64,000 nucleotides of DNA. It comes from a virus. The stretch is taken from positions 1 through 64,000 of the IMG/VR virus record IMGVR_UViG_3300008216_000009; one strand, given 5' to 3'. Below the pieces are notes generated by a model. It was not told the origin of the DNA. It saw only the letters and a program-made list of their open reading frames with translations, and did no database searches. Each line of letters starts with the position of its first letter. Positions within the stretch are counted from its first letter, which is position 1. Shown here in pieces: positions 7,608-27,267 of the stretch. A program made the translations under genes and the position numbers.

Positions 7608-7636
7608 GTCGTCCTCCTTCTTTGGTTTACTCTCTA

Positions 7637-7665: not shown

Positions 7666-7717
7666 GCACATTCTGAGATGAATATCCTGGGTCTTGGACC
7701 CCGGTATTGCCCGGGAG

Positions 7718-7732: not shown

Positions 7733-7767
7733 CCCGGGTAAGAGATCCGGCTCCTGGGAACTGGGAA

Positions 7768-7795
7768 TAAAAAAAGGGATGGGAAATCCCATCCC
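7768..7795 (-). terminator. Intrinsic terminator
   Basis: GGGATGGG/CCCATCCC hairpin with a minus-strand T-run of seven. Confidence 0.9.
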
Positions 7796-7830
7796 CCGTT
7801 CGGGGCACTTAAATTAAAATGGAGAGCGAG

Positions 7831-8271: not shown

Positions 8272-8756
8272 GCTGCTACTCCATTTAGGGGGCACGTTTC
8301 CATAATCGCTGACATAGCTTCTGAGATGTTAGTCAAATCTATAGTCCTCATTAGGTTCCATGATTGGCCTTCATGTTTATAAACTATGAGGGTATCATCG
8401 GATTCATTAAAGACATAGGCCCATTCAATAAAGACATTGTCTTTGTCCTCTACTGAGTCTACGGTCCATTCCTCCTCGTTCCTGTCGCCGTGGCAGTAGC
8501 ACTGTGGTTTGTCCTTGTTAGGGGAGTTAAAGTCTTCTACGAATCCAATTTCCTGCGTCCAATCACAGGACGCTATGTTAGACCAGCCCGCAGTATGGTC
8601 GTCCAATAATACTTTTTTACCCTCAGTTAGTCCGAAGTGATTCAAAGCTCTTAGAATACCTATACCGACCCCGGACGGGTATCCGTCCCAGTGACTGTAC
8701 CTTCCTACAAACGCATCGCCTTCAGTCTGTCTTGCAATCGTAGCCCTGGTGCTCAT
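8268..8756 (-). CDS. Conserved phage protein with YSHWDGYPSGVG motif
   Basis: 162 aa. The N-terminus (MSTRATIARQ, then GRYSHWDGYPSGVG at 18-31) matches a hypothetical family common in phages of Actinobacteria and other bacteria, known to me without an assigned function. GAGGAGGAG precedes the ATG. First gene of its cassette. Confidence 0.82.
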   Translation of the reverse strand: MSTRATIARQTEGDAFVGRYSHWDGYPSGVGIGILRALNHFGLTEGKKVLLDDHTAGWSNIASCDWTQEIGFVEDFNSPNKDKPQCYCHGDRNEEEWTVDSVEDKDNVFIEWAYVFNESDDTLIVYKHEGQSWNLMRTIDLTNISEAMSAIMETCPLNGVAA

Positions 8757-8783
8757 GTCTCCTCCTCTTATCAGTATACTAGT

Positions 8784-8812
8784 AGTATACCGTTAAGATA
8801 GGGGTATGTCAA
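8784..8812 (-). promoter_or_regulatory. Sigma70-type promoter
   Basis: -35 TTGACA (8807-8812), 17-bp spacer, -10 TATACT (8784-8789), followed by ACTAGTATACTG. Confidence 0.88.
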
Positions 8813-8872
8813 GCACATATAGGGCCGTAAATGCTGGAACTGGTCCAGCGGGTGTGTAGTTTACGGGGATTG

Positions 8873-8887
8873 GTAAGGAAAAGATAT
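8873..8887 (+). repeat. Intercassette motif, copy g
   Basis: GTAAGGAAAAGATAT. Only a weak GCGG/CCGC pairing flanks it. Confidence 0.75.
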
Positions 8888-8915
8888 AGCCGCCGGGGTC
8901 CTTTTCCGGGCAAAG

Positions 8916-8953
8916 AAAAACCCCGGAATCTTGATTTACCAGGATTCCGGGGC
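8916..8953 (-). terminator. Intrinsic terminator
   Basis: CCCCGGAATC/GATTCCGGGG hairpin followed by TTTTT on the minus strand. Confidence 0.9.
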
Positions 8954-8976
8954 TTTATTTGTACCTAAGTTGCTCT

Positions 8977-9630
8977 TTATGCTATGAGCCACTCCCTTCT
9001 GTCAGTTGCTATGGGTCTGACTGAGCGAACAAAGCTGTAAGCGGTGTCCAAACCCATACTCTTGTTCCTGACCAAGTACCATACGGTAGCCAAGACTGAG
9101 CGTTCCATGCCCATCGAGCAGTTGACCACTACCTTTTTCTCAGTAGCCATCGCCATCTCCATCGTATTCACAATGGACTCCAAGGTCTGCAAGACCTTGC
9201 TGGACTTCTTGATGCCCCATGTAGCATTGCTAGGTTCGATAGGCATCTTGACCGTAGTCTCGATGTCCAACTCACCTGCTACATTGATGGTGAAGTGCCC
9301 TTGCTTGATAGCCTCTTCGGCTCCCTCGGCTCCAGTAACGCCCAAGTTGGGCAGTACCCACGAAATCTCATGTGGGTCGAAATTGTCTGGAACTTCGTGC
9401 CCGACCATACTCTTCAGAACCTTGATTCTATCTCTGGAATCGTTGGAGTAGTCGTGCCGGGTTGGAGTTACGTACTTCTCATCCTTCCACCATTGGGTGG
9501 TAGATGCAGTAGCTGAGTTATCTATCACGTTGACATCAATCTCTTCCCACTCGCCATCTACGGCTTCATCTGCATAGATTAAGCCATTCTCAGTCAGAAC
9601 TTCGTTCGCATCCCATTTTCCGTTTTCCAC
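8977..9630 (-). CDS. Dual-specificity-phosphatase-like protein
   Basis: 217 aa. The C-terminal half contains the cysteine-phosphatase signature CSMGMERS (Cys171, Arg177; CX5R), which in this fold removes phosphate from proteins or small molecules through a phospho-cysteine. The usual His before the Cys is Asn170 here, so activity may be altered. About 100 residues of mixed N-terminal sequence precede it. GTG start at 9630 behind AAGGAGAAGG. A paralogue lies at 26731-27267 and shares the GHEVP..FDPHEISWV-type region before the catalytic domain. Substrate unknown. Confidence 0.8.
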   Translation of the reverse strand: MENGKWDANEVLTENGLIYADEAVDGEWEEIDVNVIDNSATASTTQWWKDEKYVTPTRHDYSNDSRDRIKVLKSMVGHEVPDNFDPHEISWVLPNLGVTGAEGAEEAIKQGHFTINVAGELDIETTVKMPIEPSNATWGIKKSSKVLQTLESIVNTMEMAMATEKKVVVNCSMGMERSVLATVWYLVRNKSMGLDTAYSFVRSVRPIATDRREWLIA

Positions 9631-9658
9631 AGTCCTTCTCCTTTTCAGTTATACTATA

Positions 9659-9687
9659 ATTATAGCATACAATCATACACTTGTCAA
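9659..9687 (-). promoter_or_regulatory. Sigma70-type promoter
   Basis: -35 TTGACA (9682-9687), 17-bp spacer, -10 TATAAT (9659-9664). Confidence 0.88.
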
Positions 9688-9701
9688 GCACCATCATAAC
9701 A

Positions 9702-10064
9702 TCAATTCAAGACATACAGGTTTTCCTGTAGCCACTTGGAGTGACCGAATTTTTCGCATTGCACTTCTCTGGTTTTGTGCGTCCAATCCTGGAATTCTTC
9801 CAGGGTCTTCATTGCACCATTCCGTACTTGCACACGAATACACACGCCACAAAATGCTGAGTGATTGAGGAACTCTACAGGGTTCTGAGCCTTCTTCATC
9901 TCGGTGGCGAAGTGGTCGCCTTCGTCAAATATGATGTTAACCTCGGCAAGTTGCTTTTTCAGACTTGGAGTCATATCCATATCCATCCCCTTTACCTCTT
10001 TAACTTTATTTAGTGTATCTATCAGATGCTGGTAGTCGGTCTTCGATGCTTTCAGTTGACGCAT
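9702..10064 (-). CDS. Uncharacterised phage protein
   Basis: 120 aa, helical, with CGVC at about 72-75 and further Cys/His downstream that could bind metal. TAGGAG precedes the ATG. First gene of the transcript that continues into the phosphatase-like gene; no terminator lies between them. Confidence 0.75.
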   Translation of the reverse strand: MRQLKASKTDYQHLIDTLNKVKEVKGMDMDMTPSLKKQLAEVNIIFDEGDHFATEMKKAQNPVEFLNHSAFCGVCIRVQVRNGAMKTLEEFQDWTHKTREVQCEKFGHSKWLQENLYVLN

Positions 10065-10094
10065 GACAGTCTCCTATCCAAATCCTTTACAGAT

Positions 10095-10123
10095 AGTATA
10101 CAGGAAAAACAGTATCGTGTCAA
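10095..10123 (-). promoter_or_regulatory. Sigma70-type promoter
   Basis: -35 TTGACA (10118-10123), 17-bp spacer, -10 TATACT (10095-10100). Confidence 0.88.
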
Positions 10124-10165
10124 GCACATATTCCCGGTAAAGGACCCCCTGGGGACCCGGGAGGG

Positions 10166-10180
10166 GTAAGGAAAAGATGT
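10166..10180 (+). repeat. Intercassette motif, copy h
   Basis: GTAAGGAAAAGATGT between CCCGG (10156-10160) and CCGGG (10182-10186), with GGG/CCC continuing beyond one mismatch. Confidence 0.83.
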
Positions 10181-10206
10181 GCCGGGACCCTGGAGGATCC
10201 CAGGCA

Positions 10207-10232
10207 AAGAAAAAGCCCGGTATTAACCGGGC
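10207..10232 (-). terminator. Intrinsic terminator
   Basis: GCCCGGTT/AACCGGGC hairpin followed by TTTTT on the minus strand; lies just past the tRNA. Confidence 0.9.
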
Positions 10233-10242
10233 CAGGTGTGTG

Positions 10243-10330
10243 TGGTGGGGAGTGCAGGATTCGCACCTGCGTATCTCAAACGAGAGCCAGTTTTACAGAC
10301 TGGTGCTTTTGTCTACTCAGCCAACTCCCC
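10243..10330 (-). tRNA. trnY: tRNA-Tyr (anticodon GUA)
   Basis: Full type II tRNA of 88 nt. Acceptor GGGGAGT pairs with ACTCCCC; the anticodon arm CCAGT-CTGTAAA-ACTGG places GTA at 10294-10296; there is a long variable arm (as in bacterial tRNA-Tyr), a GCAGG/CCTGC T-arm, and an encoded CCA end (10243-10245). It sits in the slot between the last gene and terminator, so it must be cut from a mRNA. It would supply host-independent decoding of UAC/UAU. Confidence 0.95.
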
Positions 10331-10341
10331 GTAAGTGGAAT

Positions 10342-10548
10342 TCATCTGGCCTGATAGCCATAGATGTATGCCCATACCCAATCGTACATCGCTCGTTTGG
10401 ATAACCGAGGGCTAACCTCCACTGAGCCGTTTTCCTTAACTAGCCTATAGCCACCGTAAGCCTTGTCATAGCTGTAGTCACGAGTGTTGTTAGTCGCTCG
10501 ATTTAGAGCCGACAGTGCATCGTCTAGGTTTGATTTAAGTATTCTCAT
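10342..10548 (-). CDS. Small phage protein, function unknown
   Basis: 68 aa, basic, predicted helix-strand mix ending in WVWAYIYGYQAR. Start overlaps the stop of 10548-10895 (TGATG) behind GGGAG. It lies 12 nt upstream of the tRNA in the same transcript. Confidence 0.75.
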   Translation of the reverse strand: MRILKSNLDDALSALNRATNNTRDYSYDKAYGGYRLVKENGSVEVSPRLSKRAMYDWVWAYIYGYQAR

Positions 10549-10895
10549 CAGTACGCTCCCTGTTCGGATTGTGCATACGCTTCAGCGTGACCATTAGCAT
10601 CCCAATCACCGTGACCGATGCCATCATAACCATAAGCGTGTGGATTTTCAGCTATCTGGCGAATGACCGCCGTATTTATTCCAACTTGGTCAGCCAGATT
10701 CAACCAGAATTCTCCATCTTTGGAGTTCAGCCACTCTATGTCCTCGCCCCCACGTAGTTCTGGGCGATTCATTCTGCCGTTAGCCAGCCTATAAGTGTTC
10801 TCAGGTTCAATGGCAGTGCCAATGACGGCTCCGATTAGCTGGGCCATTCCATCGTGTATCCCTTTTGCGTCTATGTCCGAGTTAGCCTGATTCAT
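10548..10895 (-). CDS. Uncharacterised phage protein
   Basis: 115 aa, acidic, with a Gly/His-rich C-terminal segment (YGYDGIGHGDWDANGHAEA). No domain recognised. First gene of the cassette that carries the tRNA. Confidence 0.75.
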   Translation of the reverse strand: MNQANSDIDAKGIHDGMAQLIGAVIGTAIEPENTYRLANGRMNRPELRGGEDIEWLNSKDGEFWLNLADQVGINTAVIRQIAENPHAYGYDGIGHGDWDANGHAEAYAQSEQGAY

Positions 10896-10928
10896 CTAGT
10901 CCCCTCTCTTAGTTAGTCTACACCTCTA

Positions 10929-10957
10929 AGTATAAAGCATTAGCCTACATCTGTCAA
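10929..10957 (-). promoter_or_regulatory. Sigma70-type promoter
   Basis: -35 TTGACA (10952-10957), 17-bp spacer, -10 TATACT (10929-10934). Confidence 0.88.
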
Positions 10958-10966
10958 GTAAATTCC

Positions 10967-10998
10967 GTAGCTAACGAAACCAATCTGAAAGCAATTTT
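10967..10998 (-). promoter_or_regulatory. Repeated upstream promoter element, copy 1
   Basis: Plus-strand TAGCTAACGAAACCAATCTG-AAAGCAATTTT directly upstream of the -35 box. Related copies occur at 12411-12441 and 16557-16588 in the same place relative to the promoter. Activator site or UP-like element is a guess. Confidence 0.5.
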
Positions 10999-11091
10999 AC
11001 GTCTATCTGGAATATAGTTACTGGGAATTGCGGAGGCTGTGGCAATATGCCTTCGAGGTGCTCTTGGTCTGCGAGCTAAGGACCCGGAGGG

Positions 11092-11106
11092 GTAAGGAAA
11101 AGATGT
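11092..11106 (+). repeat. Intercassette motif, copy i
   Basis: GTAAGGAAAAGATGT inside a composite stem: GGACC (11080-11084) with GGTCC (11113-11117), and GGGG with CCCC (11108-11111). Confidence 0.84.
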
Positions 11107-11132
11107 TCCCCAGGTCCAGAAGTCCCAGACAC

Positions 11133-11160
11133 AAAAAAAGCCCCAGCTTTTGCCGGGACT
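11133..11160 (-). terminator. Intrinsic terminator
   Basis: AGTCCCGGC/GCTGGGGCT (9 bp with wobbles) and a T-run of seven on the minus strand. Confidence 0.87.
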
Positions 11161-11167
11161 TGGGTTT

Positions 11168-11247
11168 AGAAGTAGAAGTCTGTGGTTTCTGTGGGCCACT
11201 CCCCTAGGTCATGCTAGGTAGGGGTCATTCCCCCGACTTTTACTTCT
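11168..11247 (-). ncRNA. Four-helix RNA element A, copy 1
   Basis: P1 AGAAGTAAAAGTC/GACTTCTACTTCT, P2 GGGG/CCCC, P3 CCTAG-CATGAC-CTAGG, P4 GTGG/CCAC. Shares the fold and core CCCCTACCT-CATGAC-AGGGGA with copies at 12298-12367 and 15262-15325, with compensatory changes in P3 and P4. This copy lies after 11265-11507 and before its terminator. Confidence 0.65.
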
Positions 11248-11264
11248 GTGGGGCTATCTGGGGC

Positions 11265-11507
11265 TTACATGGCCCCCAGCCCTTCGGGGCCGCAGCAGCC
11301 ACAGGCGGGAGCATCTTCGCACATCCCGTTGCCTTGGATGGCCCTGCCGTTGGCCCAACGGACTCCCCCGTCGAACTTGTCGTGGCAGTCCATCCCGTAG
11401 ACCCGCCCCCGTCCGTACCAGCGACCCTTAGAGCCGACAGGGAGCGATGCTCCACATTGGGTGTCGGCGCACTTGCCAGCGAACTTGAGAGTGATAGTTT
11501 TTGCCAT
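11265..11507 (-). CDS. Cys-rich zinc-ribbon phage protein
   Basis: 80 aa from ATG 11507 (MAKTITLKFAGKC) behind AGGGGA. Cys at 12 and 17, CH near 41, then a CGCC cluster near the C-terminus suggest one or two metal sites; KGRWYGRGRVYG at 26-37 resembles small ribbon proteins of other phages. The frame extends upstream only through the promoter. Confidence 0.78.
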   Translation of the reverse strand: MAKTITLKFAGKCADTQCGASLPVGSKGRWYGRGRVYGMDCHDKFDGGVRWANGRAIQGNGMCEDAPACGCCGPEGLGAM

Positions 11508-11540
11508 GAGGTGTCCCCTTTTCAATTTTGGTATACTCAC

Positions 11541-11569
11541 AGTATACACTATTATCAGACATCTGTCAA
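11541..11569 (-). promoter_or_regulatory. Sigma70-type promoter
   Basis: -35 TTGACA (11564-11569), 17-bp spacer, -10 TATACT (11541-11546). Confidence 0.88.
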
Positions 11570-11626
11570 GTGCCTATTTGAAACGAAGGACCAGTCCGAG
11601 GCGGAGGACCTGGTACCCCGGGAGAG

Positions 11627-11641
11627 GTAAGGAAAAGATGT
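11627..11641 (+). repeat. Intercassette motif, copy j
   Basis: GTAAGGAAAAGATGT looped out by GGAGAG (11621-11626) / CTCTCC (11647-11652), with outer CTGGT/ACCAG pairing. Confidence 0.87.
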
Positions 11642-11667
11642 GGGATCTCTCCAGGACCAGCGGGCAC

Positions 11668-11692
11668 AAAAAAAGCCCGGGATTTCCCGGGC
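11668..11692 (-). terminator. Intrinsic terminator
   Basis: GCCCGGGA/TCCCGGGC hairpin with a T-run of seven on the minus strand. Confidence 0.92.
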
Positions 11693-11718
11693 ATAAGTTT
11701 CTGACGGACCGGTCCAGA

Positions 11719-12063
11719 TCAGAATGGTTTAGGTGATACGTCTATCCTTCGATATGAATCTATTAGCTTCTGGACTTGTGTGATATCGGCTTCAGTCCAC
11801 TCACTTTCAGTCTCCATAAACTCTCGGAATTTAGGAGCATCTGGAAACTTCTGATCAACATATTGGATTCTATCTGCCAGATAGGCATCCCACTTGTCAT
11901 CGTCAAAGTCCTCGGCACTACGTTCTGTCATGGCTTCTATTGTATCGTTGCATGGCCCACACATATAACAGTCCATGTAGTCACGACCACACGGAATTCG
12001 ATTCACCCATCCATCGTATTGGGTATCGGCTCCGCATTCAAAACAAAGTGTTGTGTCAATCAT
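11719..12063 (-). CDS. Zinc-binding phage protein
   Basis: 114 aa from ATG 12063 (MIDTTLCFEC). CFEC at 7-10 and CYMCGPC near 31-37 form a zinc site; the rest is acidic and helical. AAAGGA precedes the start, which follows the stop of 12065-12259 by one base. Confidence 0.78.
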   Translation of the reverse strand: MIDTTLCFECGADTQYDGWVNRIPCGRDYMDCYMCGPCNDTIEAMTERSAEDFDDDKWDAYLADRIQYVDQKFPDAPKFREFMETESEWTEADITQVQKLIDSYRRIDVSPKPF

Positions 12064-12064
12064 T

Positions 12065-12259
12065 TTAGTTAGTCCTTTCAGTTCTGATCTGATCCAGCCG
12101 TTCAGCCATATCCCGAACCAGTTTCCGACCCTCCTCCTTGCCTTGTTCGCCCTCACCGTTCTCGATGAGCATGATGGCGACCTTTGCCTGAAATGCCCAG
12201 TCTGGGGCGATATTGACGGTGGTGACTATGTTGCCACTCCCAGTGTAGATGTCGGTCAT
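12065..12259 (-). CDS. Small phage protein, function unknown
   Basis: 64 aa; AAAAGGAG precedes the ATG. The C-terminal half is a charged helix (GEGEQGKEEGRKLVRDMAER). Its mRNA has a long leader holding RNA element A copy 2, so expression may be controlled there. Confidence 0.75.
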   Translation of the reverse strand: MTDIYTGSGNIVTTVNIAPDWAFQAKVAIMLIENGEGEQGKEEGRKLVRDMAERLDQIRTERTN

Positions 12260-12297
12260 CTTGTCTCCTTTTGCTTATGGGTTGATGGTTGATTTGC

Positions 12298-12367
12298 GTG
12301 GAGTCCGTGGTGTCCGTTTGTCCACTCCCCTCGGTCATGCGAGGTAGGGGTTCTTCCCTAACTCCAC
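12298..12367 (-). ncRNA. Four-helix RNA element A, copy 2 (5' leader)
   Basis: P1 GTGGAGT/ACTCCAC, P2 TAGGG-AAGAA-CCCCTA, P3 CCTCG-CATGAC-CGAGG, P4 GTGG/CCAC. It begins right after the transcription start and lies in the leader of 12065-12259, a riboswitch-like position. Confidence 0.68.
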
Positions 12368-12373
12368 CTTCTA

Positions 12374-12402
12374 AGGATACACTAAAACGTAACATCTGTC
12401 AA
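12374..12402 (-). promoter_or_regulatory. Sigma70-type promoter
   Basis: -35 TTGACA (12397-12402), 17-bp spacer, -10 TATCCT (12374-12379). Confidence 0.83.
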
Positions 12403-12410
12403 GTATTTCT

Positions 12411-12441
12411 ATAGCTGAGAAAAGCAATATCAAAGCAATTT
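12411..12441 (-). promoter_or_regulatory. Repeated upstream promoter element, copy 2
   Basis: Plus-strand ATAGCTGAGAAAAGCAATAT-CAAAGCAATTT just upstream of the -35 box; see 10967-10998. Confidence 0.5.
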
Positions 12442-12494
12442 GGACGGTCCGGTCCAGGACCCCGTTCCCTGGACCCCCACGGCAGGAGGTATAG

Positions 12495-12509
12495 GTAAGG
12501 AAAAGATGT
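12495..12509 (+). repeat. Intercassette motif, copy k
   Basis: GTAAGGAAAAGATGT inside a perfect 8-bp stem, GGACCCCC (12471-12478) / GGGGGTCC (12513-12520). Confidence 0.87.
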
Positions 12510-12535
12510 ACCGGGGGTCCCGGCTTCGCCAGGGC

Positions 12536-12562
12536 AAAAAAATTCCCCTCTTAAAAGAGGGG
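12536..12562 (-). terminator. Intrinsic terminator
   Basis: CCCCTCTT/AAGAGGGG hairpin followed by a short minus-strand T-run. Confidence 0.87.
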
Positions 12563-12573
12563 ATGTATTCTAC

Positions 12574-12622
12574 ATGCCTCATATGTTTTTTAGGCTCCCA
12601 GAGGCATTCTGGGGCGGTCATG
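12574..12622 (-). ncRNA. 3' RNA element B, copy 1 (pseudoknot-like)
   Basis: Minus strand: stem CCCAGA-ATGCC-TCTGGG, then AGCCTAAAAAACATAT, then GAGGCAT, which can pair with the loop ATGCC. About 90% identical to 13210-13258. Lies between the stop of 12633-12962 and its terminator. Confidence 0.6.
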
Positions 12623-12632
12623 GCGATGGGTA

Positions 12633-12962
12633 TCAGCCGTGCTGCTCTGCGAGGCGACCCCAGAGTTTGTCAGCCCGCCGAACAGATTTCTCAGCTTCGC
12701 TAACTAGCTCACGGTACTTACCTAGCTCTGCCTGCCACCGCCGTAGCTGCTGCTTCTCGAATCGGTACACATCGTAAGCAGCATCGACGACTGCGTCGGC
12801 GTGAGGGAAGTTCGCAGCGCAACCTTCGCACTCGTCCCCGTACCAACCGCCGTCAGTTGGGCAATTAGCCTCGCCGTATTCGTTGACAACGAGCTTCTCA
12901 CCGCAGCCGTAGGGGCAATCGAGAGTAGCTATGTTTACTTTCTCGTTAGTAGTTGTGACCAT
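12633..12962 (-). CDS. Zinc-binding phage protein with helical tail
   Basis: 109 aa. CPYGC (16-20), Cys34 and CEGC (45-48) form an N-terminal zinc region; residues 55-109 are a long charged helix. AAGGA lies 11 bases before the ATG. Leader and 3' element are nearly the same as those of the unrelated gene 13274-13495. Confidence 0.78.
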   Translation of the reverse strand: MVTTTNEKVNIATLDCPYGCGEKLVVNEYGEANCPTDGGWYGDECEGCAANFPHADAVVDAAYDVYRFEKQQLRRWQAELGKYRELVSEAEKSVRRADKLWGRLAEQHG

Positions 12963-13022
12963 TTGGTTTTTTTCCTTCCCCAGAAGCCCGACGACTGAGT
13001 GACCCCTGTAAATTACGACTAC
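12963..13022 (-). promoter_or_regulatory. Shared leader C, copy 1
   Basis: Leader begins ATAGGTAGTCG and ends TCTGGGGAAGGAAAAAAACC before the ATG. It can form CAGGGG/CTTCTG. The leader at 13496-13553 shares both ends and the pairing (CAGAGG/CCTCTG). Confidence 0.6.
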
Positions 13023-13026
13023 CTAT

Positions 13027-13055
13027 AGGATACACTAAAATAGGTGCTATGTCAA
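13027..13055 (-). promoter_or_regulatory. Sigma70-type promoter
   Basis: -35 TTGACA (13050-13055), 17-bp spacer, -10 TATCCT (13027-13032). Confidence 0.83.
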
Positions 13056-13127
13056 GTAGGTCGGAAAACTGAGACTCCAGATATTCCTGGCTTTGTATAG
13101 CCTGGGTAGTTCCCGGTGAGCCAGGTC

Positions 13128-13142
13128 GTAAGGAAAAGATGT
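13128..13142 (+). repeat. Intercassette motif, copy l
   Basis: GTAAGGAAAAGATGT with inner CCAG (13121-13124) / CTGG (13144-13147) and outer CCCGG/CCGGG pairing. Confidence 0.82.
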
Positions 13143-13169
13143 ACTGGGGTCCGGCTCCGCCGGGGCAAA

Positions 13170-13192
13170 GAAAAACCCCTCTTTTGAGGGGT
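13170..13192 (-). terminator. Intrinsic terminator
   Basis: ACCCCTC/GAGGGGT hairpin followed by TTTT on the minus strand. Confidence 0.87.
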
Positions 13193-13209
13193 AGTGGTAG
13201 TTTTATAGT

Positions 13210-13258
13210 ATGCCTCATATGTTTTTTAGGCTCTCAGAGGCGTTCTGAGGCGGTTATG
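13210..13258 (-). ncRNA. 3' RNA element B, copy 2 (pseudoknot-like)
   Basis: Stem CTCAGA-ACGCC-TCTGAG (compensatory change against copy 1), the same A-rich linker and GAGGCAT. Lies after 13274-13495. Confidence 0.6.
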
Positions 13259-13273
13259 CCACCCTACCCTACC

Positions 13274-13495
13274 TTAGGCTGGAGTGACGACGTGCCACAC
13301 CTTACCAGCGTAGGGACCGACATCCGCAACCTCTAATCCAGCGGCTGACCCGTCGGCTACTCCCATGGTGGACTCGCAAGCTGTGCAGATAGTCCATGAC
13401 GGGCTAACTACGATGGTTGCAGGGTTCTTGCACCCTTGTGCAGTCCACGCTTTGGAGTCATCTATGTGACTCATGTGCTCGCATTGGCAGTTCAT
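13274..13495 (-). CDS. Cys-rich phage protein
   Basis: 73 aa. CQCEH near the N-terminus, Cys22, and CTAC (37-40) suggest a zinc site. AAAGGA precedes the ATG. The protein is unrelated to that of 12633-12962 although promoter, leader C and 3' element B are shared. Confidence 0.75.
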   Translation of the reverse strand: MNCQCEHMSHIDDSKAWTAQGCKNPATIVVSPSWTICTACESTMGVADGSAAGLEVADVGPYAGKVWHVVTPA

Positions 13496-13553
13496 TTGGT
13501 TTTTGTCCTTTCCCAGAGGGCGAGAGAGTGCCTCTGTAATATCCGACTACCTA
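13496..13553 (-). promoter_or_regulatory. Shared leader C, copy 2
   Basis: ATAGGTAGTCG start, CAGAGG/CCTCTG hairpin and CTGGGAAAGGACAAAAACC end; close relative of 12963-13022. Confidence 0.6.
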
Positions 13554-13554
13554 T

Positions 13555-13583
13555 AGTATAAAGGAAAACACGCAATATGTCAA
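13555..13583 (-). promoter_or_regulatory. Sigma70-type promoter
   Basis: -35 TTGACA (13578-13583), 17-bp spacer, -10 TATACT (13555-13560). Confidence 0.88.
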
Positions 13584-13631
13584 GTGTCTGCCTCGAATAC
13601 TCCTGGGAGGATCCTAGTCCTCCCGGGAAGG

Positions 13632-13646
13632 GTAAGGAAAAGATAT
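13632..13646 (+). repeat. Intercassette motif, copy m
   Basis: GTAAGGAAAAGATAT; CTCC (13620-13623) and GGAG (13660-13663) can pair around it. Confidence 0.78.
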
Positions 13647-13679
13647 GCCAGGTCCCCCAGGAGCCTCGAAGCTCCCAGC

Positions 13680-13709
13680 AAAAAAAATCCCGGTAAAATA
13701 CCGGGATTT
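13680..13709 (-). terminator. Intrinsic terminator
   Basis: ATCCCGGTA/TACCGGGAT hairpin with a T-run of seven on the minus strand. Confidence 0.92.
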
Positions 13710-13732
13710 CTTCAACAGTTAGGGCTGTCTAT

Positions 13733-13819
13733 TTATTTAATTGTTTTGTTCCATGCCTTAGTTAGCTCACGTTTCAGTTCAGATACCTTGCATTTAATTA
13801 CGAATTGTCGCTTATGCAT
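13733..13819 (-). CDS. 28-aa basic microprotein
   Basis: MHKRQFVIKC then KVSELKRELTKAWNKTIK: a basic amphipathic helix. Its ATG overlaps the end of 13812-14072 by 8 nt and AGAGG lies about 7 nt before it. Small size leaves doubt. Confidence 0.5.
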   Translation of the reverse strand: MHKRQFVIKCKVSELKRELTKAWNKTIK

Positions 13820-14072
13820 ATGCTGCCTCTGGATTGAATATACTTTCCCATTTACCCATCATGTCACTCCAACGCCCTCGGACTGCATTCTCAGTGTCAT
13901 GGACTTCGTAGTCTACGAACCCTTGGTCATCCTCTAGGATGATGCCATAGAGGCCGTCAGTGATGATTAGGGCTGACCAGAATCCCTCTACCTGACAGGA
14001 GCCATACTCTTCCTCTGCAAAGCCGTTCATTGCTACGTCGTTTAGCTTTTCCGAAATTGCGTCGTACTTCAT
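13812..14072 (-). CDS. Small acidic phage protein
   Basis: 86 aa from ATG 14072 (MKYDAISEKL), AAAGGG before it, ATGA overlap with 14069-14287. Acidic, with a GIILEDDQGFVDYEVHDTENA stretch compatible with a small beta sheet. Function unknown. Confidence 0.75.
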   Translation of the reverse strand: MKYDAISEKLNDVAMNGFAEEEYGSCQVEGFWSALIITDGLYGIILEDDQGFVDYEVHDTENAVRGRWSDMMGKWESIFNPEAAYA

Positions 14073-14287
14073 TCTAGTTCCCTTTCGTTGCTGAGTTCTC
14101 CACACACACATTCTGTGATTCTAGGGATGAATTTCAAGCTACATTCGCATATGTTCAACTTGGTGTCTTCTACGAAAGACTTACACTCAGGACACTGGAA
14201 TAGCCTACGGTCTTCGCATTCCGTGTAGTGCTTCTCGTCCACCCAAGGTGGGTCTACTGGTAGGTCAACTACGATGTCTTGGTTCAT
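14069..14287 (-). CDS. Zinc-ribbon phage protein
   Basis: 72 aa from ATG 14287 (MNQDIVVDLP). CPEC at about 32-35 with paired CEC and CVC further on suggest one or two zinc sites. AGGAG precedes the ATG; the frame extends to 14374 only inside the upstream gene. Confidence 0.75.
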   Translation of the reverse strand: MNQDIVVDLPVDPPWVDEKHYTECEDRRLFQCPECKSFVEDTKLNICECSLKFIPRITECVCGELSNERELE

Positions 14288-14289
14288 TT

Positions 14290-14463
14290 TTATGCTCCTA
14301 TGTAATCGCTGGCTGAGCAATCCCAGCATATGGTCAGAGTCTCGTCTAGGTTCGTCCCCGTACATTCTGGGCATTCTCGATTGGCCCGCATTAGTTGTTT
14401 CTTGAGTTTAGCTACTAACTTCATTGTGTCGTTTACTAGGCTATTTCTTTGTATGTTATTCAT
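14290..14463 (-). CDS. 57-aa zinc-ribbon microprotein
   Basis: N-terminal basic helix (MNNIQRNS...KLVAKLKKQL) followed by CPEC and CWDC knuckles about 12 residues apart. AAGG precedes the ATG, which overlaps the upstream stop (TGATG). Below usual ORF cut-offs but well supported by packing and the zinc motif. Confidence 0.78.
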   Translation of the reverse strand: MNNIQRNSLVNDTMKLVAKLKKQLMRANRECPECTGTNLDETLTICWDCSASDYIGA

Positions 14464-14612
14464 CAGTTTCTCACCTTACTTGTTTTGATCTTGATGTCCT
14501 TGATAGCATCTTGATCACGGATGACATCGTTGATGTCGATGTCGCTCTCACTGACCTTGCCATCGTACTCCATCTCGTAGATTACCGTGACCTTGACCTT
14601 TGTGTTTTCCAT
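14463..14612 (-). CDS. 49-aa phage protein, paralogue of 16302-16487
   Basis: TKVKVTVIYEMEYDGKV near the N-terminus and NDVIRDQ in the middle align with TKVKVVVEYELVYDEKI and NDIVRDP of 16302-16487. GGGAGGG precedes the ATG. First gene of a five-gene cassette. Role unknown. Confidence 0.78.
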   Translation of the reverse strand: MENTKVKVTVIYEMEYDGKVSESDIDINDVIRDQDAIKDIKIKTSKVRN

Positions 14613-14647
14613 GGATTCGCCCTCCCTTGTGTTTGGTCTACCCTCTG

Positions 14648-14676
14648 ATTATACTCTCATTCTTTACATGTGTCAA
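14648..14676 (-). promoter_or_regulatory. Sigma70-type promoter
   Basis: -35 TTGACA (14671-14676), 17-bp spacer, -10 TATAAT (14648-14653). Confidence 0.88.
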
Positions 14677-14740
14677 GTGTTTATTTGACCAATTTTACTT
14701 GGATTTGGACCCCGTCCCGGTTCCTGGTAGAGCTTAGAGG

Positions 14741-14755
14741 GTAAGGAAAAGATAT
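14741..14755 (+). repeat. Intercassette motif, copy n
   Basis: GTAAGGAAAAGATAT between TCCTG (14722-14726) and CAGGA (14764-14768). Last copy of the A7 class. Confidence 0.8.
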
Positions 14756-14780
14756 GTCCCGGGCAGGAGGATTCCAGGGC

Positions 14781-14808
14781 AAAAAAAATCCCGGCTCGAA
14801 GCCGGGAT
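14781..14808 (-). terminator. Intrinsic terminator
   Basis: ATCCCGGC/GCCGGGAT hairpin with a T-run of eight on the minus strand. Confidence 0.92.
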
Positions 14809-14826
14809 AGGGGGGGATTACGAGGA

Positions 14827-15201
14827 TTACTCGTAGTGGGGCCGATAGGCGGGGTATTCTTCGCCAGGATGGTCTTCTACCCTGATTTCATAGCTACCAG
14901 ATGTTACCAACTCGCCTGGGAATTCTGTTGGGACATCCATCGTATCCAGATAGTTTACGCCGTTAGCGTCGTGTGTGTAGCTGTAGGCATATTCTGATTT
15001 GTTGGAATATTTGGCACTCAGAATAGATTCCCAGTGTCCCGCAGGACATAGGTCGCCGTGGACATACTCGGACTCAGACTCGACACAGGTGGTCGCCTTG
15101 CTCACAACTGGAGTACCACATGTGTAGTACCAGCCACCCTCCTCTGCACCGCCGTAGCGACGTTCGGTAGAATATACATTTACGAAAACTGTGTTGCTCA
15201 T
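14827..15201 (-). CDS. Uncharacterised phage protein with RRYGGAEEGGWYY motif
   Basis: 124 aa, Tyr-rich. ERRYGGAEEGGWYYTCGTPV at 13-32 resembles a hypothetical phage family. Two or three Cys may bind metal. It has a 140-nt leader holding RNA element A copy 3, and its own promoter and terminator. Confidence 0.78.
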   Translation of the reverse strand: MSNTVFVNVYSTERRYGGAEEGGWYYTCGTPVVSKATTCVESESEYVHGDLCPAGHWESILSAKYSNKSEYAYSYTHDANGVNYLDTMDVPTEFPGELVTSGSYEIRVEDHPGEEYPAYRPHYE

Positions 15202-15261
15202 TTTATCTCCCTGTGTTTTGGTTCTGGGCAGTAGCTCGGATGTGACATTGGACTGGGTTGA

Positions 15262-15325
15262 GAGCCTCTAGGGTCTGATGGCTAGTCCCCTGAGTTATGT
15301 CAGGTAGGGGGCACTCCCCCGACTC
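15262..15325 (-). ncRNA. Four-helix RNA element A, copy 3 (5' leader)
   Basis: P1 GAGTC/GGCTC (plus CTGGG/CCCAG outside), P2 GGGGG-AGTG-CCCCC, P3 CCTGA-CATAAC-TCAGG, P4 CTAG/CTAG. Helices differ from the other copies by paired changes while the loop and the CCCCTACC / AGGGGA core persist. Confidence 0.68.
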
Positions 15326-15351
15326 CCCAGCCCCATCCTCACTACATTAGT

Positions 15352-15380
15352 AGTATACCACGATTCCTTACATGTGTCAA
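15352..15380 (-). promoter_or_regulatory. Sigma70-type promoter
   Basis: -35 TTGACA (15375-15380), 17-bp spacer, -10 TATACT (15352-15357). Confidence 0.88.
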
Positions 15381-15449
15381 GTCTTTTGGTCCCGGGTTTT
15401 TAACTTGAGTCCTGGGCCAGGAGGAACTTGCAGTAAATGCAATATGGGT

Positions 15450-15464
15450 GTAAGGGAAAGCTGT
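15450..15464 (+). repeat. Intercassette motif, copy o
   Basis: GTAAGGGAAAGCTGT between CAGTA (15431-15435) and TACTG (15464-15468). First copy of the C12 class. Confidence 0.8.
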
Positions 15465-15472
15465 ACTGGATC

Positions 15473-15512
15473 CTTTGAGTTTTTACCCGGGTAAAAAGCC
15501 TTACCAGGGTTC
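15473..15512 (-). terminator. Weak terminator-like hairpin
   Basis: CCCTGGTAA/TTACCCGGG (one mismatch) just past the stop of 15517-15783; no proper T-run follows on the minus strand. Confidence 0.5.
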
Positions 15513-15516
15513 CTCT

Positions 15517-15783
15517 CTATTTTAGATACTCCCTCACAATGGCTTTTAGGTCTACCATTCCTCGCTTTGGCTCCCCTAAGATGAAGTCTAGGCACTTTTG
15601 GATATTCTGGAGGGACATGCTGCCGTGAGTGCAGAAACGCTTTATTCGTTCAATTCCTTCGACTACTGTTACGAATTGACCGATTGCCACGATTTCGTAA
15701 TTCCCTACTTGTAGACTATGATTCCAGTCTCCATCTCGGATTTCGTTCAGGCTTAGAGGATTTCCGTTCTTTGTGATTGCCAT
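15517..15783 (-). CDS. Small phage protein, function unknown
   Basis: 88 aa; GAGGAG precedes the ATG. Beta-rich N-terminus (WNHSLQVGNYEIVAIGQFVTVV) and helical C-terminus. Unlike its neighbours it has no TTGACA box upstream; only a weak GATAAT is seen, so its expression may differ. Confidence 0.72.
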   Translation of the reverse strand: MAITKNGNPLSLNEIRDGDWNHSLQVGNYEIVAIGQFVTVVEGIERIKRFCTHGSMSLQNIQKCLDFILGEPKRGMVDLKAIVREYLK

Positions 15784-15934
15784 AGTTTTTCTCCTCTTAG
15801 TTACTTTTCTTATCTACTCTCATTATCTATGACGACGCCCAGAAGTCGGCCAGTACCTACCCAGTATCCATCCAGATGTGAGGCAGGTTTGGCCCAGAGA
15901 TGGCCCAGTTCCTGGAGGTATAGTGCACGATGGG

Positions 15935-15949
15935 GTAAGGGAAAGCTGT
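15935..15949 (+). repeat. Intercassette motif, copy p
   Basis: GTAAGGGAAAGCTGT inside CCTGGAGG (15911-15918) / CCTCCCAGG (15954-15962), 8 bp with one bulge. Confidence 0.84.
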
Positions 15950-15979
15950 GTTCCCTCCCAGGGACCGAAATCCGGGCAC

Positions 15980-16036
15980 AAAAAAGCCCTGACCTCATAG
16001 CTTCGCCTTTTGTAGGCTCCACGGTTCGTCAGGGCT
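15980..16036 (-). terminator. Intrinsic terminator with long apical loop
   Basis: AGCCCTGAC/GTCAGGGCT with about 34 nt in the loop and TTTTTT on the minus strand. A separate ACTCCGT/ACGGAGT hairpin follows at 16038-16055. Confidence 0.82.
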
Positions 16037-16055
16037 GACTCCGTTAGTACGGAGT

Positions 16056-16141
16056 TTCGGTAACTGCCCCTGCAGTGTATGTATATTTAATGGTAGTCAG
16101 ACTTTAACTTCGCATTTCAATACTCCTCAGTGCTGCTGTCG
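16056..16141 (-). other. Possible broken small gene
   Basis: A frame overlapping the stop of 16142-16300 as ATGA reads MTTAALRSIEMRS, TAA, then SLTTIKYTYTAGAVTETPY and a stop at about 16046. It may be a remnant interrupted by one stop codon, or noise. Confidence 0.25.
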
Positions 16142-16300
16142 TCATTCTGATTTGTCCTTCCGTTTTCCCCATCCTGCCAGTTCCCGTTGTTTAGCTACTT
16201 CGGGATCTGAGGTAGCAAACCTGCGTATTCGTTCTGTTACTTCACGCTGCCTGATTTCCTCTTTGGCCTGTTCGATGGACATGTATGTAATTGTTGGCAC
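16142..16300 (-). CDS. 52-aa basic helical phage protein
   Basis: Starts at GTG 16300, five bases after AAGGAG and one base after the stop of 16302-16487. Highly charged helix (EQAKEEIRQREVTERIRRF). An internal ATG (MSIEQ) six codons in is less well placed. Function unknown. Confidence 0.72.
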   Translation of the reverse strand: MPTITYMSIEQAKEEIRQREVTERIRRFATSDPEVAKQRELAGWGKRKDKSE

Positions 16301-16301
16301 A

Positions 16302-16487
16302 TTAGCTCCTTACAGTCTTAAATTCTACGTCATGTATAGAGACGATATTGCGGGGGTCTCGAACAATATCATTGAAGTCCACGATGTCGCTGACGTTGTC
16401 CTTATCTATTTTCTCATCATAGACCAATTCGTACTCCACGACCACTTTGACTTTGGTTCCTGTCTGCTTCTTGAGTAGCCCTAGCAT
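16302..16487 (-). CDS. Small phage protein, paralogue of 14463-14612
   Basis: 61 aa. TKVKVVVEYELVYDEKI and NDIVRDP align with the 49-aa product of 14463-14612. AAGGAG precedes the ATG. First gene of its cassette. Function unknown. Confidence 0.78.
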   Translation of the reverse strand: MLGLLKKQTGTKVKVVVEYELVYDEKIDKDNVSDIVDFNDIVRDPRNIVSIHDVEFKTVRS

Positions 16488-16519
16488 TGCGTCACTCCTT
16501 CTTAATTGGTTCTACAGTC

Positions 16520-16548
16520 ATTGTACACCTATTTCCTACATGTGTCAA
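16520..16548 (-). promoter_or_regulatory. Sigma70-type promoter
   Basis: -35 TTGACA (16543-16548), 17-bp spacer, -10 TACAAT (16520-16525). Confidence 0.85.
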
Positions 16549-16556
16549 GCATTGCC

Positions 16557-16588
16557 TATAGCTAAGAAAACCAATCTCAAAGCAATTT
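16557..16588 (-). promoter_or_regulatory. Repeated upstream promoter element, copy 3
   Basis: Plus-strand TATAGCTAAGAAAACCAATC-TCAAAGCAATTT upstream of the -35 box; see 10967-10998. Confidence 0.5.
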
Positions 16589-16646
16589 CCTACTCCCCCT
16601 ACCCGACCTGGGAGAACCCGTGAATCGGTCCCTCCGCCCGGGAGGG

Positions 16647-16661
16647 GTAAGGGAAAGCTGT
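16647..16661 (+). repeat. Intercassette motif, copy q
   Basis: GTAAGGGAAAGCTGT; CCTGGG (16607-16612) and CCCAGG (16667-16672) can enclose it. Confidence 0.8.
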
Positions 16662-16713
16662 GGTGGCCCAGGTGTTCGTGCCAGGGGCTGTTTTGGGGTT
16701 TGTCCGGGGCTAT

Positions 16714-16760
16714 GCCACAAAAGTGGCACAAAAAAACCCCAGGCAGAAATGCCTGGGGCT
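16714..16760 (-). terminator. Intrinsic terminator with a second hairpin
   Basis: CCCCAGGC/GCCTGGGG (16737-16758) followed by a T-run of seven on the minus strand, then a GCCAC/GTGGC hairpin (16714-16727). Confidence 0.92.
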
Positions 16761-16790
16761 TGTGCGGTGTTTGCTGTATTTTAAGTGTAC

Positions 16791-16967
16791 TTAGGCACTC
16801 CGTTTCCTCTTGTACTCTCGATACTCTGAATTGCTGAGTCCGTTGATGTACTCTCGATGTACCTTGAGTAGCAACTTAAAGTCGTGGAGTAGTTCCTCTC
16901 TTGGGTTCAATTCTCCATCGTTGAAATATCCCATTGCGTCGCCTAGTGTTAGTTCGTCTTCACGCAT
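16791..16967 (-). CDS. Small phage protein, function unknown
   Basis: 58 aa from ATG 16967 (MREDELTLGD), overlapping the end of 16960-17193 by 8 nt, with GGAG eight bases upstream. Acidic N-terminus, basic C-terminus (YREYKRKRSA). Last gene of a four-gene cassette. Confidence 0.74.
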   Translation of the reverse strand: MREDELTLGDAMGYFNDGELNPREELLHDFKLLLKVHREYINGLSNSEYREYKRKRSA

Positions 16968-17193
16968 TTCCGTTTCTCCGTTTCTGCCAGTAGGTGTCAA
17001 AGATTTCTCCCTGCTCTACCCGTCTGCCCAATGTTGTCTCAAGTTTAATCCATTCCCTGAGAATCTCATTCTCCCGCTTACGGGATTCTGATGGAGATGC
17101 TTCGCCGTCCATGTGTAGATTCTCTGGCTCCAATCGGATTACCAGATTGAAAAACTTACTGAATAGCTCGTTAGGTATGGTCGTCTTTATCAT
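16960..17193 (-). CDS. Small phage protein, function unknown
   Basis: 77 aa, helical and charged, with no motif recognised. GGTGAG precedes the ATG; it ends inside the next gene's start. Confidence 0.74.
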   Translation of the reverse strand: MIKTTIPNELFSKFFNLVIRLEPENLHMDGEASPSESRKRENEILREWIKLETTLGRRVEQGEIFDTYWQKRRNGNA

Positions 17194-17194
17194 T

Positions 17195-17380
17195 TTAGTT
17201 TCTCACCATCCGTTCAATTCCTTTAATCATCCGACTATGTTTTCTCATCCTAGCCGGAGAAACATGGTTCCAGTTGCAATCCCCACAGCATAATCCTTCT
17301 GCAACTGGAGATGCATCGTAGCCCCATGAACCCTTAACTGAGTGATTTGCTATGGGATTCTTGCAGATAACGCATTGCAT
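17195..17380 (-). CDS. Zinc-binding phage protein
   Basis: 61 aa. CVIC (3-6) and CCGDC (31-35) plus His39 form a treble-clef-like zinc site reminiscent of HNH-type folds, but too short for a nuclease. GGGTGAG precedes the ATG. Confidence 0.76.
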   Translation of the reverse strand: MQCVICKNPIANHSVKGSWGYDASPVAEGLCCGDCNWNHVSPARMRKHSRMIKGIERMVRN

Positions 17381-17381
17381 G

Positions 17382-17666
17382 TCAGTCTCTCACCCTTCTC
17401 TCCCGCTGGCTCCACAGGCCCGTGTATACCTCTTTAATCATCTTTGCAGCCTCGTCCTGATTCGACCCGTAGACCACTACTCGCCCCAACTCATCGACAC
17501 TGAGCCTCTCAACGCCGTCTGCGGGGCATTCTAGGATGGTTACCCACTTGCCAGAGAGTGTGGCGGGATAGTTGTCGGCAGCGTCCAGTTCCGACTCTCC
17601 CATTGACCAGTAGCCCTCGTCAGACCTTATCACGAACAATTTCTCCGCTGTAGCCGATGTCTTCAA
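17382..17666 (-). CDS. Small phage protein, function unknown
   Basis: 94 aa starting at TTG 17666 behind AAGGAG. Mixed alpha/beta; contains GYWSMGESELDAADNYPATL. No family recognised. First gene of the cassette. Confidence 0.74.
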   Translation of the reverse strand: MKTSATAEKLFVIRSDEGYWSMGESELDAADNYPATLSGKWVTILECPADGVERLSVDELGRVVVYGSNQDEAAKMIKEVYTGLWSQRERRVRD

Positions 17667-17705
17667 AGCAGTCTCCTTCGCCGTCAGGGTTGTGTTACAT
17701 CTCTA

Positions 17706-17734
17706 ATTGTACACTATAACAAGACACGTGTCAA
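17706..17734 (-). promoter_or_regulatory. Sigma70-type promoter
   Basis: -35 TTGACA (17729-17734), 17-bp spacer, -10 TACAAT (17706-17711). Confidence 0.85.
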
Positions 17735-17825
17735 GCACAATTCAAGGGCAATTTTACCTGTATTTGGAAATTGGTCAGTCTCCCCTGCCCGGATACCCCC
17801 GTGGACCCTGGGTGGCCCGGGGGCG

Positions 17826-17840
17826 GTAAGGGAAAGCTGT
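17826..17840 (+). repeat. Intercassette motif, copy r
   Basis: GTAAGGGAAAGCTGT in the loop of an 11-bp stem, GGCCCGGGGGC (17814-17824) / GCCCCTGGGCC (17845-17855). Strongest hairpin and last copy of the array. Confidence 0.9.
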
Positions 17841-19678: not shown

Positions 19679-19906
19679 CTATTCTATGAATTCCTCAAGT
19701 TTTGTATAGCATTCCTCGCATTGGTATACATGACTGCTGTCTGTGGGCACCTCGTCGTGTTTGACTAGTAGCTCTGTGTTCTTCCAGTCAGTGTTGGTGT
19801 AGCAGGAGCGTGTCTCGTTGGGGAGTCCGTCTTCGTTACCTTTGAGTACCCATTCCAATAGTCTGTCCATCTGTGCTGTCGTCCAACCCCCTCTTGACCA
19901 GTTCAT
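19679..19906 (-). CDS. Small phage protein with CEEC motif
   Basis: 75 aa; TTAQMDRLLEWVLKG near the N-terminus is a helix, and CEEC near residues 63-66 with Cys35 may bind zinc. GAGGAG precedes the ATG. No canonical -35 is seen upstream (only TATATA/TATAGT near 19935). Confidence 0.74.
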   Translation of the reverse strand: MNWSRGGWTTAQMDRLLEWVLKGNEDGLPNETRSCYTNTDWKNTELLVKHDEVPTDSSHVYQCEECYTKLEEFIE

Positions 19907-19982: not shown

Positions 19983-20020
19983 AAAAAAACACAACGCCCG
20001 TCACGGGGACGGACGCTGTG
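19983..20020 (-). terminator. Intrinsic terminator
   Basis: 13-bp stem CACAGCGTCCGTC/GACGGGCGTTGTG with a T-run of seven on the minus strand. Confidence 0.92.
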
Positions 20021-20065
20021 CAAGAAAAGGAGACATCCACTGTCAGGCTAATAACAGTAGAGTCT
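19983..20065 (-). ncRNA. Candidate small RNA with pyrimidine tract
   Basis: A promoter (20072-20100) and terminator bracket about 83 nt without an open frame. The RNA would have a 5' hairpin (ACTGT/ACAGT), a single-stranded GTCTCCTTTTCTTG tract and the terminator hairpin. The tract is complementary to AAGAAAAGGAGA-type ribosome-binding sites of this phage. Confidence 0.65.
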
Positions 20066-20071
20066 ACTCGT

Positions 20072-20100
20072 AGTATACCGTTCCTACTTCAATTAGTCAA
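20072..20100 (-). promoter_or_regulatory. Sigma70-type promoter of the small RNA
   Basis: -35 TTGACT (20095-20100), 17-bp spacer, -10 TATACT (20072-20077). The -35 overlaps the stop codon of 20097-20315. Confidence 0.83.
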
Positions 20101-20315
20101 TCCCCTTCATCATCCTTTTTGGCACTCTTGGCTAGCCATCCAGCAATGGCTCCCAGTACCCCGGCTATAGCCAATTTGACTAGGTTTATCACACTGTAGG
20201 ACATTGGTCGGTTATTCACCTGTGACTGTATGATGTCCTGTGCTACCACGATAGCTAACAGCCCCAACAGGGCTATCACCATAAGGATGAAAAATGAATG
20301 GATCCCTTTAAACAT
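20097..20315 (-). CDS. Small two-span membrane protein
   Basis: 72 aa with hydrophobic segments at about 6-26 and 43-61 and a charged KSAKKDDEGD tail. Size and layout fit a small holin or another phage membrane protein, but no lysin gene is adjacent. Overlaps 20308-20655. Confidence 0.75.
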   Translation of the reverse strand: MFKGIHSFFILMVIALLGLLAIVVAQDIIQSQVNNRPMSYSVINLVKLAIAGVLGAIAGWLAKSAKKDDEGD

Positions 20316-20655
20316 ACACCGCCCCAGAGGTGCCTACATTTTTTATGCCTTCCCAACAGACCCGGCAGTACACCTCACTGCCCTCTCTGGGGGTGAATGG
20401 TACTACAGTCGCCCTATAACAGTGATGGCACTCCACCTGACTGGTGGGAGATGGGCTACTGTGGGACTGCCTAGACCCCTCCTGGGTGGACTGTGCTTTA
20501 CGCTCTGCCCTGCAGGGTGGGCACCTCTTGGGCAGATCCAGCCCTCGTTGTGCAAAGAAGTCCTGCTCCCCTTCTCGAAGACTAAATACATCACCACACA
20601 TCATGCATGTAATGCTGCTACTATCCCTCATGCTGCTATGCTCGTCTATCATCAT
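20308..20655 (-). CDS. Double zinc-ribbon protein
   Basis: 115 aa. First ribbon: CMMCGDVF then LREGEQDFFAQRGL and CPPCRAERK, matching the probable zinc-ribbon (zf-trcl) pattern. Second ribbon: CHHC and CRVC. A Ser/Thr/Gln-rich linker separates them. Such modules are typical of regulators or nucleic-acid adaptors; target unknown. Confidence 0.82.
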   Translation of the reverse strand: MMIDEHSSMRDSSSITCMMCGDVFSLREGEQDFFAQRGLDLPKRCPPCRAERKAQSTQEGSRQSHSSPSPTSQVECHHCYRATVVPFTPREGSEVYCRVCWEGIKNVGTSGAVYV

Positions 20656-26383: not shown

Positions 26384-26749
26384 TCACACCACTTTATTAC
26401 CGTGTCTGTATGGACGAGTTTCGTTATAAGACATTTTTTCAGTTATGGCTTTTTCCAGGTCTAGTTTAAACTCCCCACACAGATCTGCTATACGTATAAC
26501 GACATCAGCAAGTTCTATAACAAATCCTTCGGGTTTCCCTTCCTGTGCCTCATACCACACATTATCTAGATGTTCCATTCCTGTCTCCCTGTATGCCTCC
26601 AGGGCTTCACTCACTTCACTGTGTATTAGAGCTAAAAGTTCGGGAATGTTTCTAGAGGAACTGGGCAACTCCGTTGAATCCCACCACCCCTTCTCTATGG
26701 CATTTTTATGGGATTTCTTTATGAGAGTTTTTATATCCATGTAAGCCAC
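26384..26749 (-). CDS. mazG: MazG-like nucleotide pyrophosphohydrolase
   Basis: 121 aa. Hydrolyses NTPs or dNTPs (possibly ppGpp) to monophosphates. The metal-binding EXXE (E45-E48 in HSEVSEALEAYR) and EXXD (E79-D82 in ELADVVIRIADL) motifs are intact, and the C-terminal KMSYNETRPYRHGNK is typical. MazG is frequent in phages, where it is thought to tune host nucleotide or alarmone pools. Confidence 0.9.
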   Translation of the reverse strand: MAYMDIKTLIKKSHKNAIEKGWWDSTELPSSSRNIPELLALIHSEVSEALEAYRETGMEHLDNVWYEAQEGKPEGFVIELADVVIRIADLCGEFKLDLEKAITEKMSYNETRPYRHGNKVV

Positions 26750-27267
26750 TGTTCTCTATTGCAAACTATTGGTCGGGCTTGCATAGTATCTTTATAGGCA
26801 TCTTTTATTGACAGACCTTCATTCTTATGAAGATACCAGACCACTGCTAGGGGTGCTCTTTCCATACCCATTGCACAATGGAGAACAACGCTTTGATCCG
26901 TATCATCAAGAATCTCACCGATCTTGTTGGAGATCTTACTTAACGTGTCTTTAAAATTAGATTCGTAGGGCTGCAATCCCATAATTATATCAGAGCCTAT
27001 GCCAATTTCCGGGGCTACAGTAATAACATAGTGATCCAGAGCTATTGCTTCACAGGCACCTTCCCAGTCCGTTATACCTATCCTAGGACGTACCCAGGAT
27101 ATCTCATCTGGATTAAAATCTTTGGGTATAGATCTACCGACCATCCTGCTGAGGCCCGGTTGACCGTTGCTTCCATGCAGCCTCAGTTTAGAGGGTTGGC
27201 TGTTTTTAAGTTGGGGCAGTGTTAATGGCATTTTTTCTTTCCGTGCTTCCTTTACCATATCCGCCAT
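26731..27267 (-). CDS. Dual-specificity-phosphatase-like protein, paralogue of 8977-9630
   Basis: 178 aa. HCAMGMERAP (His130, Cys131, Arg137) is a complete HCX5R phosphatase loop. The segment FNPDEISWVRPRIGITDWEG (51-70) matches FDPHEISWVLPNLGVTGAEG in the 8977-9630 product. Both probably hydrolyse phosphoester substrates in the host cytoplasm; the target is unknown. Overlaps the MazG gene by 19 nt. Confidence 0.82.
   Translation of the reverse strand: MADMVKEARKEKMPLTLPQLKNSQPSKLRLHGSNGQPGLSRMVGRSIPKDFNPDEISWVRPRIGITDWEGACEAIALDHYVITVAPEIGIGSDIIMGLQPYESNFKDTLSKISNKIGEILDDTDQSVVLHCAMGMERAPLAVVWYLHKNEGLSIKDAYKDTMQARPIVCNREQWLTWI

Follow-up and report, generated by a model that had tools for sequence, protein, structure and literature searches.

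The window analysed here is the first 64 kb (64,000 nucleotides [nt]) of the 95.6-kb virus record IMGVR_UViG_3300008216_000009, which represents an uncultured marine phage, and the element under study is a putative small RNA gene on the minus strand at 19983–20100. It lies in the left arm of the phage genome, a run of short minus-strand operons, most of which are opened by a promoter of the form TTGACA-N17-TATACT and many of which are closed by an intrinsic terminator.

A promoter–terminator unit in the left arm

A preliminary description, based on the letters of the DNA, had proposed that a canonical promoter and a strong terminator bracket about 83 nt that contain no gene. All three elements of this proposal were confirmed, since both signals were located and no minus-strand open reading frame (ORF) of at least 40 amino acids is present between genes 20097–20315 and 19679–19906. 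The features of the locus, in the direction of transcription, are:

20072–20100 (minus strand), sigma-70-type promoter of the small RNA, TTGACT-N17-TATACT, with a profile score of 17.4
19983–20065 (minus strand), predicted small RNA of about 83 nt, its start placed about 7 nt past the −10 box
20031–20065 (minus strand), 5′ hairpin of the small RNA in the predicted fold
20021–20034 (minus strand), tract GUCUCCUUUUCUUG, resembling an anti-Shine-Dalgarno (anti-SD) sequence, with its CCUUUUCUU portion unpaired in the predicted fold
19989–20021 (minus strand), intrinsic terminator with a 14-bp stem (−23.3 kcal/mol) followed by U7
19679–19906 (minus strand), downstream gene of 75 amino acids, function unassigned, with a good SD sequence and no profile promoter between the terminator and its start

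A profile derived from 23 other promoters of the left arm placed this one 25th among the 127,912 positions scored. Pairs of a promoter and a strong terminator 30–160 nt apart occur once in the window and in none of 150 random windows generated with a first-order Markov model. The predicted fold of the 83-nt RNA is far more stable than that of its shuffled counterparts (−39.7 kcal/mol versus −16.86 ± 2.77; z = −8.25), as is that of the 5′ part alone (−15.9 versus −6.4 ± 2.1, a value equalled by 0 of 1000 shuffles). At the sequence level, the locus has the attributes of a stand-alone small RNA gene, namely its own promoter, its own terminator and no coding sequence, and it is likely to be a genuine one.

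The single-stranded tract originally proposed, GTCTCCTTTTCTTG, does have an open part, but this is shorter than suggested: in the predicted fold the initial GUCU serves to close the 5′ hairpin, while the last G of the tract enters the terminator stem, leaving CCUUUUCUU (9 nt) as the only unpaired stretch. Rfam covariance models, applied at the gathering score to the whole window, detected only a tRNA-Tyr, with no match to the c4 antisense RNA or to other families. A plus-strand reading of the locus was also considered and rejected, as CAAGAAAAGGAGAC has no suitably spaced ATG, GTG or TTG after it.

Predicted pairing of the tract with translation initiation regions

To place the complementarity of the tract on a quantitative footing, its pairing was scored by a helix-energy calculation against the 93 leaders with an SD sequence that were kept from 113 mechanically called genes, and a separate run counted the folding of both partners. 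Control tracts were generated under five schemes, which included full shuffling, retention of the core with random flanks, retention of the core with the flank letters shuffled, and pyrimidine-only flanks. The mean pairing of the tract over the 93 leaders was −13.10. Full shuffling gave −10.71 ± 0.71 (P = 0.0007), the core kept between random flanks −11.95 (P = 0.0007) and the core kept between flanks of shuffled letters −12.46 ± 0.23 (P = 0.03); a Bacillus-type 16S tail scored −12.16. By the same measure the tract ranks first of the 38 natural CTCCTT 14-mers in the window, and control regions inside genes gave a mean of −9.11. When folding was counted, 23 leaders fell below −8 kcal/mol, whereas tract shuffles averaged 13.9 such leaders and only one of 120 reached 23. 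The complementarity to ribosome-binding sites is real, and is largely a consequence of the likeness of the tract to the anti-SD sequence of 16S rRNA.

The sequence itself shows the promoter, the predicted fold, the terminator and the breadth of complementarity; that the RNA is transcribed, pairs inside the cell and represses, and on which mRNAs it acts, we infer as follows. Host RNA polymerase would transcribe the ~83-nt RNA from a promoter of the phage's own type and the intrinsic terminator would end the transcript, with the CUCCUUUUCUU tract held open between the two hairpins. Because the tract resembles the tail by which the ribosome finds its mRNAs, it could exert a weak block on the translation initiation of many mRNAs; by pairing with A-rich AAAGGAG leaders it would probably lower initiation on the set of mRNAs that carry them rather than on one dedicated target. 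The affected mRNAs would be those of the phage left arm and perhaps those of the host. Our preferred interpretation, a tentative one that falls somewhat short of probable, is that the locus encodes an independent ~83-nt phage RNA whose broad anti-SD tract would lower initiation on a set of mRNAs. A more sweeping version, in which a soluble mimic of the 16S anti-SD tail would act as a general initiation brake on many AAAGGAG leaders and reshape both phage and host translation, we consider rather improbable. Few phage small RNAs have a known function, and most of these belong to phages of a small number of cultured hosts; a compact RNA directed against ribosome-binding sites in an uncultured marine phage would, if real, suggest RNA-pairing control of whole gene sets.

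There are parallels in bacteria and in other phages. The small RNA NfeR1 of Sinorhizobium shows that silencing of an mRNA at the initiation region can be achieved by an anti-SD tract, and the alpha-r14 ('cuckoo') RNAs of rhizobia have three hairpins with CCUCCUCCC unpaired in each (PMC10746234). The phage RNA shares with these trans-acting silencers an anti-SD motif in an unpaired region, in its case by prediction, but differs in having two hairpins and a single linker pyrimidine tract (CUCCUUUUCUU), in lacking CCUCCUCCC and in its unrelated sequence, so the three-hairpin structure that defines alpha-r14 is not found in it. We read it as an RNA that may work like NfeR1 while being unrelated to it. 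Base-pairing small RNAs are also encoded by phage genomes, as exemplified by PreS of lambda, VpdS of VP882 and the c4 RNA of P1/P7, the last of which blocks the ant ribosome-binding site through pairing (PMC12197685). These have demonstrated targets or partners, whereas the RNA described here has no dedicated target that stands out.

Distribution of the locus and alternative explanations

Several observations weigh against a broadly acting anti-SD RNA. The margins over the breadth controls are modest (P = 0.001–0.03), the set of leaders depends on our own ORF calls, and the best single pairing, predicted for gene 8268–8756, is only nominally significant. Apart from the window, protein and DNA searches of IMG/VR recovered the locus in a single contig, with 99.98% identity across the ~20 kb of the comparison, and the unit is absent from the examined distant relatives in which part of the left arm is retained (G004, G006, G008, G009 and G014). 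As the locus was seen only in the window and this near-identical contig, it offers neither covariation nor conserved-seed evidence.

Capsid-related loci, 67 in all, were fetched as relatives, and in the relatives sampled no comparable promoter–terminator pair with this tract was detected; two loci that have a homologue of the neighbouring gene 20308–20655 (L094 and L096) lack the small RNA unit. A DNA search of phage records with the locus gave no match, and queries of IMG/VR, one using the tract together with the stem and another the hairpin, yielded nothing beyond the near-identical contig and an unrelated match (L004). An 88% match in G005 was rejected as a homologue, being isolated and without a promoter or terminator. 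A host search through alignment of the capsid protein found no relative in genomes. Either the RNA is of recent origin or it is restricted to this lineage of phages.

The best placed of the alternatives, although unlikely, is that the RNA binds Hfq or another protein, the U-rich tract and U7 tail forming the binding module, with the seed elsewhere or with competition for the chaperone as the function. In the Hfq module of the SgrS type, a U-rich stretch within the RNA precedes the terminator hairpin, and the tail has at least seven U (PMC5558911). Both features are present in the phage RNA, where the U-rich stretch abuts the terminator hairpin, a likeness of layout only, and competition for Hfq is known from another phage RNA, VpdS (PMC12197685). 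However, such a module needs no CUCC core and leaves the top rank in leader pairing unexplained, and tails of U5–U8 are carried by many terminators of this phage. Hfq binding is, moreover, compatible with the anti-SD interpretation.

The main structural alternative, also unlikely, is that the promoter serves gene 19679–19906 and that the 83-nt RNA is its terminated leader, the terminator being bypassed under some condition. The good SD sequence of this gene agrees with such an arrangement, as does the best profile score between the terminator and the gene, 1.2 compared with 17.4 for the small RNA promoter, and the RNA contains an 11-codon AUG frame that stops in the terminator loop. Yet this frame has no SD sequence, the highly stable terminator predominates in the ensemble, and the AT-rich stretch ahead of the gene could be another type of promoter. 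No antiterminator fold is evident beside the one dominant fold, alternatives not having been searched exhaustively.

More doubtful is an ordinary 3′ end, in which the terminator closes the operon of gene 20097–20315, the apparent promoter is a weak or chance match and the locus yields no small RNA with a function. The distance from the stop codon of this gene to the terminator (76 nt) lies within the roughly 20–110 nt seen in other operons here, and the RNA is conserved no further than the near-identical contig, but the promoter ranks among the other promoters of the phage and the 5′ hairpin alone is far more stable than its shuffles.

The preliminary description had named specific targets, and two candidate sites bear on this claim:

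7323–7335 (minus strand), perfect 13-bp complement to the tract before gene 6914–7321, the exact 13-mer CAAGAAAAGGAGA directly before the ATG at 7321
8755–8769 (minus strand), start region of gene 8268–8756 and best predicted target when accessibility is considered, 15 bp across the SD sequence and start codon with two G-U pairs

The 13-mer described before gene 6914–7321 was found, as were the shorter complementary stretches before genes 8977–9630 and 12065–12259. However, full shuffling produced a best duplex equal to the 13-bp match in 6% of cases, retention of the core between random flanks did so in 7.5% and two further schemes in 11%; only pyrimidine-only flanks never did. This leader ranked ninth among predicted targets once folding was counted. 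The predicted duplex at gene 8268–8756 reaches −16.7 kcal/mol with folding, a value matched or beaten by five of 120 tract shuffles. A dedicated antisense regulator of either gene, despite these two matches, is the least likely of the explanations, as both come close to what control tracts achieve. Single-target pairing near the controls and mean pairing above them support breadth and not a dedicated target; what remains of the antisense regulator first proposed is a stand-alone RNA gene whose mean complementarity to ribosome-binding sites exceeds that of controls.

Repeats and other features of the window

An asymmetric repeat with the core A[TG]CTTTYCCTTA occurs in 18 copies in the window, every one of them in minus-strand orientation within 250–17839 (for example at 1992–2005, 4318–4331, 10166–10179 and 14741–14754) and in most cases in the spacer from a terminator to the following promoter; near matches number 19, with about one expected. 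The motif is present in all 14 of the left-arm terminator-to-promoter spacers read and absent from the fifteenth, the small RNA unit. A distant relative, G008 (L103/L104), has 23 copies, all on one strand and often right after a terminator, and the repeat is absent from 15 other relative records sampled (some in part) and from the remaining 31.6 kb of this genome. A search of IMG/VR for further left arms, using terminator plus repeat, returned the two known phages and otherwise mostly chance matches. Its asymmetry, repetition, intergenic position and single orientation recall the stoperators of mycobacteriophages (PMC9283540), a resemblance only, and the motif could be a site for a repressor or another protein.

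Two hairpins, CCTAGCATGACCTAGG and CCTCGCATGACCGAGG (11203–11218 and 12329–12344, minus strand), share the same loop and differ by a compensating A-T to C-G change; one follows gene 11265–11507 and the other lies in the leader of gene 12065–12259. Their short pattern alone occurs within chance expectation in number.

The tRNA-Tyr gene lies at 10243–10330 (minus strand) and is immediately followed by an intrinsic terminator at 10233–10214. Near the major head protein gene, 39043–42735 (plus strand) encodes a protein of 1230 amino acids with a weak NUDIX-like stretch (residues ~261–379) and a C-terminus resembling a prohead protease. Dual-specificity phosphatase domains occur in two proteins of this one phage, encoded at 8977–9630 and 26731–27267 (minus strand).
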